Shown in pieces: positions 27,465 through 43,587 of a DNA stretch of 64,000 nucleotides. The notes beneath the pieces are model-generated. The model was not told where the DNA came from. It saw nothing but the letters and a program-made list of their open reading frames with translations, and did not search any database. How positions within the stretch are numbered: position 1 is the stretch's first letter; each line of letters opens with the position of its first letter. Source of the DNA: a candidate division WOR-3 bacterium (GTDB taxonomy: Bacteria > Hydrothermota > Tepidihabitantia > Tepidihabitantales > Tepidihabitantaceae). The stretch is from NCBI GenBank assembly GCA_039801085.1, contig JBDRTY010000003.1, forward strand, positions 1 to 64,000. Reading direction: 5' to 3'. Both the position numbers and the translations under genes were made by a program.

Positions 27465-27485
27465 ATTATCACAAAAGGAGGCAAT

Positions 27486-28049
27486 GTGCGCCTGACAAAT
27501 CTGTTGCTCATCATCACCGTAACCTTCAGCCTGAGTCTGAGCCAGGAGCTGCTGCTCAATGGCAATTTTGAGCAGGACCTCTCCATCGGCTGGACCAGGA
27601 CCGATTCCGGTTACGGTACCCATCAGGTTCTGCGGGGAACTGAATACCAGCCGGACCCGGACTATGAAGCCTGGGTTTATCAGTATGACAACCCCGGCTG
27701 GACCCGGCTGAGCCAGCGGGTTGAGGTTCCTGGTGTTGCCCTGCAACTCTCATTCTGGGCAAAATTTGCCGAAAGCGGTGGCACTTCCACCTGCTGGCCT
27801 GCTGCCTGCTTTCAGGTCTGTTATTACGATGCCGATGCCAACCTGCTTGGCGAAACCCGGTATTTCTATTCCACCTATGCCACCTGGACACCCTCCCCGA
27901 TTCTGAGTCTCTACCAAATCACCAACCCGGACTGGAACCGCTATGAGCTGAATATCGCCGATGAACTGACCAGCAACCTGCCCGGGGTCAACCCCTCTGA
28001 TGTTGCCTTTGTTGAAGTAGCACTCTGGAGCTATACCCACAGCGGCTGA
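27486..28049 (+). CDS. Secreted jelly-roll protein, part upstream of in-frame TGA
   Basis: 187 codons from a GTG (AGGAGG 4 nt upstream) to a TGA at 28047. After a signal peptide (LLLIITVTFSLSLS) comes a carbohydrate-binding-module-like jelly roll: ELLLNGNFEQDLSIGW, then ALQLSFWAKFAESGG, then VAFVEVALWSYTHSG. The domain is incomplete here. Its expected closing strand (AEVSADDISLI) appears in the same frame just after the TGA, so this and the next entry form one 641-codon reading frame. Possibilities are selenocysteine or tryptophan insertion at UGA, a recent nonsense mutation, or an assembly error. Confidence 0.75.
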   Translation: MRLTNLLLIITVTFSLSLSQELLLNGNFEQDLSIGWTRTDSGYGTHQVLRGTEYQPDPDYEAWVYQYDNPGWTRLSQRVEVPGVALQLSFWAKFAESGGTSTCWPAACFQVCYYDADANLLGETRYFYSTYATWTPSPILSLYQITNPDWNRYELNIADELTSNLPGVNPSDVAFVEVALWSYTHSG

Positions 28050-28076
28050 GGGACCCCGGTGGCGGAGGTCTCCGCC
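28047..28076 (+). promoter_or_regulatory. In-frame TGA followed by a SECIS-like hairpin
   Basis: The TGA at 28047-28049 is flanked by glycine codons (GGC-TGA-GGG). Exactly 11 nt later a perfect 6-bp stem with a 4-nt loop begins: GGCGGA (28061-28066), GGTC loop (28067-28070), TCCGCC (28071-28076). The E. coli fdhF SECIS also begins 11 nt after UGA and has a GGUC loop. Here the bulged U of the E. coli element is missing. Confidence 0.4.
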
Positions 28077-29408
28077 GATGACATCTCATTAATCAATAAC
28101 AACTCCGGACCGTTCATTCTGCTCGGCACCAAAACCGTGCTCGACTCACCGCCGGGCGGTAACAATAACGGCAGGTTTGACCCGGGTGAATCCGGCGGTC
28201 TGATCCTTGCTTTGCGCAATATTGGCAATCAGGGTGTAGATAATGTAAATGCTCTGCTCCGCTCCACCGATTCCCGCTTCATCATCACCGACTCCACCAC
28301 CAGTTACGGCTCAATCCCTGCCTGCTCCACCCGCACCAATACGGGCGACCCGTTCCGGATTCAGGTTGACCCGGCAATTCCCAAGGAAACTCCGGTTCAA
28401 CTACTGCTCCTGATCAACGGTAATGGCTATTGCGACACGATCCGGTTCCGGCTGATTGTCGGTGAGATTGTCCAGACCGATCCGATTCCGGATGGACCGC
28501 GTCAACCGCCACTGTACTGGGCTTACGACGATGTTGACACCAGCTATACCCAGCATCCGGATTTCTCCTGGATTGAAATCAACAACCTCGGCACCCAGCT
28601 CACGCTGAGTGATGACCAGACGGTTGTGCTCGACCTGCCGTTCAACTGGCAGTTCTACGGTGAACCCTACAGTCAGATCTCCATCTGCTCCAACGGCTGG
28701 GTTGCGCCCGGCTATACGACCAACACCGTCTATTACAACACATCTCTACCCGCTACCACCCTGCCTGGCGCGGTCTGTGCCAACTGGGATGATCTCTATC
28801 CGCCGATCGGCAATGGTGTCTGGTATTATCACGACGCACCAAACCACCGGTTCATCATTGAATGGGATTCGGTCCATTATATCGGCAGCAATCTCTGGGA
28901 GCGGTTTGAGATCATTATCTACGACCAGACATTCCCGACCCCGACCGGGGACAACCAGATTGTGGTCCAGTATCTGACCGCCAACAGCTATACTTCAAGC
29001 ACCGTCGGCATTCAGGACCCGAGTCAGTCCATTGCAATCCAGTGTCTTTATGACGGCACCTATAACAACGGCAGTGCCCCGATTATTCCGGGCCGGGCGA
29101 TAAAATATGTCACCGGCACCCCGACCGCAATCCGGGAAAGCAATGAACCGGTCAAACTGTCCGCCCGGTTTTATGCCTTCCCGAATCCGGGCCGGGGCTT
29201 AATCCAGTTTATTAACGAAACCGGCGCTACCGGCTCGATCTCCATCTACGACCGGACCGGCAGACTGGTCACCACCCTCCAGCAGACAAGCCGGACCTGG
29301 GATGGAAGAGATGCAACCGGCAAACCCGTATCTCCGGGTGTTTACTTCTGCCGGCTGAAAACTGTCTCCGGACCGGAACTGGAGGCAAAACTGATAATCA
29401 CCCGCTGA
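28059..29408 (+). CDS. Secreted jelly-roll protein, part downstream of in-frame TGA
   Basis: The open frame continues from the TGA at 28047 with no further stop for about 450 codons. A GTG at 28059 could be an internal start but has no ribosome binding site and would yield a protein without a signal peptide. Contents: the end of the jelly roll (VAEVSADDISLINNN), a CARDB-like beta-sandwich (GRFDPGESGGLILALRNIGNQG), a beta-rich domain (about 155-350: FSWIEINNLGTQLTLSDD, GAVCANWDDLYP), and a C-terminal sorting domain (SIYDRTGRLVTTLQQ, SPGVYFCRLK). A hairpin terminator follows. Confidence 0.75.
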   Translation: MAEVSADDISLINNNSGPFILLGTKTVLDSPPGGNNNGRFDPGESGGLILALRNIGNQGVDNVNALLRSTDSRFIITDSTTSYGSIPACSTRTNTGDPFRIQVDPAIPKETPVQLLLLINGNGYCDTIRFRLIVGEIVQTDPIPDGPRQPPLYWAYDDVDTSYTQHPDFSWIEINNLGTQLTLSDDQTVVLDLPFNWQFYGEPYSQISICSNGWVAPGYTTNTVYYNTSLPATTLPGAVCANWDDLYPPIGNGVWYYHDAPNHRFIIEWDSVHYIGSNLWERFEIIIYDQTFPTPTGDNQIVVQYLTANSYTSSTVGIQDPSQSIAIQCLYDGTYNNGSAPIIPGRAIKYVTGTPTAIRESNEPVKLSARFYAFPNPGRGLIQFINETGATGSISIYDRTGRLVTTLQQTSRTWDGRDATGKPVSPGVYFCRLKTVSGPELEAKLIITR

Positions 29409-43566: not shown

Positions 43567-43587
43567 AAAGAGCTCGGCGTTGCCTCA
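43541..43587 (-). promoter_or_regulatory. In-frame TGA followed by a SECIS-like hairpin (second case)
   Basis: The TGA (43587-43585) lies between glycine codons (GGT-TGA-GGC). Twenty-five nt later on the minus strand is a perfect 7-bp stem, CAGACGG (43559-43553), loop CGGGT (43552-43548), CCGTCTG (43547-43541). The loop starts 32 nt after UGA and has G at its second position, within the general bacterial SECIS pattern as I recall it. It is a weaker match than the element at 28047. Confidence 0.3.

Follow-up and report, generated by a model that had tools for sequence, protein, structure and literature searches.

A Family of Predicted Surface Selenoproteins with a Covarying Hairpin Downstream of a Conserved UGA in Candidate Phylum WOR-3

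The Locus and Its Gene

The window is a 64,000-nt stretch of contig JBDRTY010000003.1 from a candidate division WOR-3 bacterium. On its forward strand, a reading frame opens with the GTG at 27486 and is closed by an ordinary TGA at 29406–29408. As the initial annotation had it, the frame is otherwise open, its sole interruption being the TGA at 28047–28049. The homologue L026 has ATG where this gene has GTG. The neighboring genes lie on the opposite strand, and those that can be named are ordinary (QueH, MazG-like, and DUF6754); thus, the gene looks like a single-gene unit. The features are collected in Table 1.

Table 1. Features of the predicted selenoprotein gene, in window coordinates.
Feature	Coordinates	Strand	Basis
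Shine-Dalgarno-like sequence AAAGGAGG	27474–27481	+	Sequence reading; 4 nt before the GTG at 27486
Predicted selenoprotein gene, complete; 640 residues, Sec = residue 188	27486–29408	+	ORF reading; orthologues with the same architecture
Predicted signal peptide VRLTNLLLIITVTFSLSLSQ, residues 1–20	27486–27545	+	Basic start and hydrophobic core, read from the sequence
Sec-containing N-terminal domain, residues 21–211	27546–28118	+	Profile A1; no Pfam/NCBIfam family; low-confidence mostly-beta model
In-frame TGA, predicted to be read as selenocysteine, codon 188 of 640	28047–28049	+	TGA in 107 of 108 distinct homologues, Cys in 1
Putative bSECIS hairpin GGCGGA-GGTC-TCCGCC, apical loop 28067–28070	28061–28076	+	Covariation in 106/106 homologues; agrees with the published bSECIS model
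Common C-terminal region, residues ~209–564	28110–29177	+	Matches from query residue ~208 on in ORFs of ~1000–1300 aa without internal stops
T9SS type A sorting domain, residues 565–638	29178–29399	+	TIGR04183, PF18962

Purifying selection acts on the frame both before and after the internal TGA. For the part 3′ of it, comparison with a 93%-identical orthologue gives dN 0.039 and dS 0.31, i.e., a dN/dS of ~0.13. The sorting domain that had been noticed beyond the TGA is real: it scores 35.3 bits against TIGR04183 (cut-off 23) and 27.2 against PF18962 (cut-off 27). The window genome encodes SprA, the T9SS translocon (482.9 bits, cut-off 200). That is, the two marks of T9SS type A cargo, a C-terminal TIGR04183 match above cut-off and a T9SS in the same genome, are both present, and the protein is predicted to be exported and displayed on the cell surface. 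Its C-terminal 430 residues recur in many large exported proteins that lack Sec and are encoded in the same genomes.

Three architectures occur in the family, as follows. The Sec domain is joined to the C-terminal region (~650 aa), is joined to a tail the size of a sorting domain (~300 aa), or stands alone. The domain-alone members end 19–28 residues past the Sec and have no sorting domain; they retain the TGA and the hairpin. It follows that the Sec itself, rather than access to a sorting tail, is what is kept.

The UGA Codon among Homologues

Homologues were sought in two ways. A search with the full protein covered 61 genomes, the bacterium's own and related ones; the relatives that span the Sec site are 33–93% identical, and each has exactly one internal TGA. 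A family profile, A1, built on the N-terminal domain, was run on 147 genomes of candidate phylum WOR-3 (NCBI phylum Caldifarciminota). It found ~110 domains in 50 of the 147 genomes, from about ten families of bacteria. The family genomes appear to be metagenome assemblies.

After removal of duplicates, 108 distinct sequences cover the Sec site. The codon is TGA in 107, a count that includes L131, whose profile alignment was one residue off, and Cys in the remaining one; no other stop and no other residue is found. The initial annotation had reasoned that an alignment with Trp, Arg, or Gly at this position would speak for readthrough or mutation. None of these residues stands at the site in any of the 108 sequences, and the alignment favors selenocysteine. 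The same TGA is also present in L052, assembled independently from a close relative. The sole Cys form, L143 (G004:C1:2500106-2500666), belongs to a genome in which many Sec forms occur as well. The evidence for Sec/Cys exchange in the family consists of this one gene.

The Hairpin Downstream of the UGA

The hairpin that the initial annotation had described 11 nt past the TGA is a perfect 6-bp stem with a GGTC loop, the loop lying 17 nt from the TGA. The core is worth −9.7 kcal/mol, or −11.4 with one extra flanking pair. Its apex resembles the AGGUCU apex of fdhF. An energy cut-off of MFE −7.5 or lower was used. The published bSECIS model has a loop of 3–9 nt with a G within the first two positions, on a stem of 4–16 bp, 16–37 nt from the UGA (PMC13188914, Fig. 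2A). With its GGUC loop, 6 bp, 17 nt, and −9.7 to −11.4 kcal/mol, the window hairpin lies inside every one of these limits, and the proposed comparison with bSECIS elements therefore came out positive.

The annotation had also cautioned that such stems arise by chance in coding DNA. For generic stems (at least 6 bp, MFE −7.5 or lower), this is so: they follow 150 of the 2509 TGA triplets on the two strands of the window, and a generic hairpin alone therefore says little. The caution does not extend to the type seen here, as a 6-bp stem with a GGTC loop follows only the TGA at 28047 among those 2509. The 1.91-Mb genome has exactly two instances of the tight pattern of TGA, spacer, and hairpin, each of them in a family member, and none of the reversed control pattern. 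None of the other window TGAs with an open frame on both sides is followed by a GGTC-loop hairpin. The best of these other candidates, the minus-strand TGA at 43587, falls between two adjacent ordinary ORFs and was rejected.

Every TGA gene of the family carries the hairpin. Pairing was analyzed in the 106 alignable TGA sequences with an AxVyA motif, the residues encoded by the stem. The five inner pairs are all formed in 106/106, and the pair types include GC, AT, GT, CG, and TA. When the partners of the varying stem pairs were shuffled, the observed pairing was matched in 0–1 of 2000 trials, and the tree requires the pair state to have changed at least 13 times. The residues x and y change only together, as follows: K-F 58, E-S 33, R-L 6, E-F 5, R-F 2, W-Y 1, and Q-C 1. 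The E-F and R-F combinations are tolerated via G-U pairs, and the stem-breaking combination K-S is absent from the 106 sequences. In the AEVSA genes, the protein-silent third positions of the Ala and Ser codons are paired in 33/33 (GC 27, AT 4, CG 1, TA 1).

The loop is GGTC in 95 of the 106 genes, AGTT in 8, and GGTT in 3. In the GGTC-loop genes, the TGA-to-loop spacing is 17, 20, 23, or 26 nt, always in steps of one codon; these spacings of 17–26 nt are within the 16–37 nt of the model. The Cys gene has lost the hairpin, reading TGC CCG CCT CCA TTC GAC TCG GTC AGA GTC CTG GCG. Covarying pairs, silent positions among them, together with loss of the stem in the gene that encodes Cys, are the signature of a SECIS element. 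To judge from these patterns, the family hairpin is under selection as RNA. The UGA of selD served as a positive control: in the window genome and its relatives it has a hairpin of its own, with an AGUU(G/A) loop at 22 nt, close to the AGUU loop of the eight family members.

The Selenocysteine Machinery

A search for selA, selB, selC, and selD had been proposed, and all four were found in the window genome with matches above curated cut-offs (selA 570 bits, selB 374 bits, and tRNA-Sec, the selC product, 74 bits). The selD adjoining selB has its own catalytic residue encoded by TGA (SCAGUASK). The genome has two selD genes, a Sec type next to selB and a Cys type elsewhere; the loci are G000:C1:520859-521764 (L002) and G000:C2:407199-408119 (L001).

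The machinery and the family occur together. Among the 50 family genomes, selA is over threshold in 45, selB in 45, and tRNA-Sec in 43. At least one of the three is over threshold in 49 of the 50, vs. 17 of the 97 genomes without the family (Fisher P ~3e-23, a value that overstates the independence of the genomes, since they are related). The fiftieth, G029, is only an apparent exception: a fragment at a contig edge (G029:C75:2-1141) matches SelB positions 243–581, the SelB-specific C-terminus, the gene having been cut at the contig end. Counting this partial SelB, all 50 family genomes have at least one of selA, selB, and tRNA-Sec.

Decoding of the UGA

Taken together, the Sec machinery, the conserved UGA, the covarying SECIS, and the selection past the UGA argue that the UGA at 28047 is almost certainly decoded as selenocysteine via a standard bacterial SECIS, a conclusion established to the limit of what sequence can provide. 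Selenocysteine had been offered as a possibility in the initial annotation; the sequence tests that were run all came down on its side. In the proposed mechanism, a ribosome reaching the UGA would meet the hairpin, whose GGUC loop would recruit SelB with Sec-tRNA-Sec. Once Sec is inserted, the ribosome would go on to complete the N-terminal domain's last strand, the C-terminal region, and the T9SS sorting domain, after which the Sec pathway and T9SS would export the protein, leaving it displayed on the surface. Under selenium shortage, translation would be expected to stop at the UGA.

A different account is programmed readthrough independent of selenium, in which termination is held up by the hairpin and the UGA is read by a near-cognate tRNA for Trp, Arg, or Cys. 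Two forms would be made, one short and secreted, the other long and anchored at the surface. The position of the TGA, between the N-terminal domain and the sorting domain, would indeed yield two such products. However, Trp and Arg are never found at the site and Cys only once, the presence of the family follows the Sec machinery, and the hairpin obeys SelB-type loop rules. Moreover, the domain-alone members, with no sorting domain, keep TGA and hairpin, so anchoring is not what is selected. We therefore regard this account as very improbable. Readthrough with tryptophan specifically was rejected for want of any Trp homologue.

The alternative that had been called the sober one, a nonsense mutation (or a pseudogene or sequencing error), is a common event in general, and TGA is one base away from TGG, TGC, TGT, CGA, and GGA; its probability here is nevertheless negligible, and it is rejected because more than 100 divergent genes from about ten bacterial families share the codon (107 distinct genes with TGA, and an independent assembly with the same base triplet), and the frame 3′ of it is under purifying selection. 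A global reassignment of TGA, already set aside in the initial annotation, was likewise discarded: the gene's own final TGA is a stop and is followed by no hairpin of the SECIS kind.

The Sec Domain and Its Possible Role

Neither Pfam nor NCBIfam contains a family that the Sec domain matches at threshold. CBM_4_9 (PF02018) stays below threshold, with a best E of 0.039 in one of 22 members. Searching PDB sequences by profile returned nothing useful, and the domain profile has no match on viral contigs or on plasmids. An AF2 model made from three sequences is mostly beta and of low confidence (mean pLDDT 49.5, pTM 0.58); its best structural matches in the PDB are sugar-binding FBA domains (TM 0.34–0.39, E ~1e-3). 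The NG(D/N)FE...GW start and the ADD(I/V) end of the domain recall carbohydrate-binding jelly rolls. The label "jelly roll" given to the domain at first is plausible and, at the low confidence of the model (pLDDT 49.5), falls short of proof; the domain is probably a jelly-roll or galactose-binding-like beta-sandwich.

Within the domain, the Sec is in the loop before the last strand and is invariant but for the one Cys. At least one other Cys is present in every domain (104/104). In 58 of the 104 a Cys directly precedes the Sec, and in 73 a Cys occupies alignment column 145, in a GCxW-like loop. The partner Cys has no single fixed position across the family, and the window protein has its Cys residues within TCWPAACFQVC instead. 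Because the Sec is near-invariant, has a Cys just before it in about half of the family, and is accompanied by at least one further Cys per domain, we suggest, as a reading that may well be either right or wrong, that it takes part in surface chemistry involving thiols, peroxide, or metal, either as a redox-active selenol or by pairing with a nearby Cys as a selenenylsulfide. No known domain of the window protein points to an enzyme function.

A second proposal concerns function rather than decoding, namely that the Sec is structural only, a stable, non-catalytic selenenylsulfide that locks a loop in a module of the carbohydrate-binding-like type. The same Cys counts (a further Cys in each domain, the one before the Sec, and the one at column 145) would suit it, as does the weak resemblance of the model to binding modules. 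But a disulfide would normally suffice for such a lock, the position of the partner Cys shifts, and selenium seems to be chemically required, given that Cys forms are all but lacking. We consider a purely structural Sec possible and rather unlikely.

A broader picture would be one of phylum-wide surface selenoproteins built on a lectin-like beta-sandwich that is not thioredoxin-like, with a Sec virtually never replaced by Cys; we put as much weight on this picture as against it. If true, it would speak for new extracellular selenium chemistry, e.g., a surface peroxidase, a thiol reductase, or a site handling metal or selenide, that helps retain the Sec trait in WOR-3.

Relation to Known Systems

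The decoding, as proposed, is the standard bacterial mechanism and is already known; what appears new is the family of proteins, the fold class it probably has, the route of its export, and the all but complete lack of Cys forms. With E. coli fdhF and bSECIS elements in general (PMC13188914, Fig. 2A), the family shares a UGA followed, 16–37 nt on, by a small loop starting with G on a 4–16 bp stem; in the window gene, the GGUC loop is closed by A-U and is 17 nt from the UGA. The differences from fdhF are that the protein is unrelated, that the window hairpin is short with no obvious conserved lower stem, and that the family also uses GGUU and AGUU loops.

A 2026 catalogue lists 119 prokaryotic selenoprotein families (PMC13188914 Table 1). 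The Sec-domain family is absent from it and from the deep-Sep list (PMC12013277). Like members of the catalogue, the WOR-3 proteins have a single Sec, and about half have a CU motif, as in SaoL, HgcA, and KCU-star. In contrast, the catalogue holds no T9SS cargo and no such jelly-roll-like domain, and most of its characterized families have a thioredoxin-like fold (PMC13188914). The deep-Sep families (TonB-dependent receptor and hypothetical DG, DW, and DF) are likewise computational finds in bacteria, one of them at the cell envelope, but all have many Cys homologues, whereas the WOR-3 family has 1 Cys in 108 (PMC12013277). With CBM_4_9 and galactose-binding-like modules the family shares the NG(D/N)FE...GW and ADD(I/V) pattern, and with T9SS type A cargo proteins the sorting domain; the WOR-3 domain differs in carrying a Sec and in having no Pfam match at threshold. 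No published report of the family was found in the open-access full-text literature, so reports elsewhere are possible, and the literature searches returned no relevant papers on selenoproteins of WOR-3/Stahlbacteria.

An unnamed protein domain would join the selenoproteome, from a candidate phylum for which selenoprotein work was not found. Selenoproteins are usually pictured as thioredoxin-like or metal-centre enzymes that have many Cys twins, a picture to which this family does not conform. The family is also a natural data set for the way in which an RNA target of SelB constrains a protein, as residue pairs of the last strand change together to preserve the hairpin, and a surface role of selenium in WOR-3 becomes directly testable.

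Further Members of the Family

Annotation pipelines that treat UGA as a stop only would cut the family genes in two. The window's own genome has a second member, L072 (G000:C1:762616-764541); it shares 33% identity with the window protein and has an NSU motif and a hairpin of the same kind. In several genomes, two or more members are adjacent or near each other (L060, L051, L120, L121, and L126). One gene, L124 (G120:C196:4674-5246), has a second TGA, replacing a conserved Trp near the N-terminus, and is probably a pseudogene or an assembly error.
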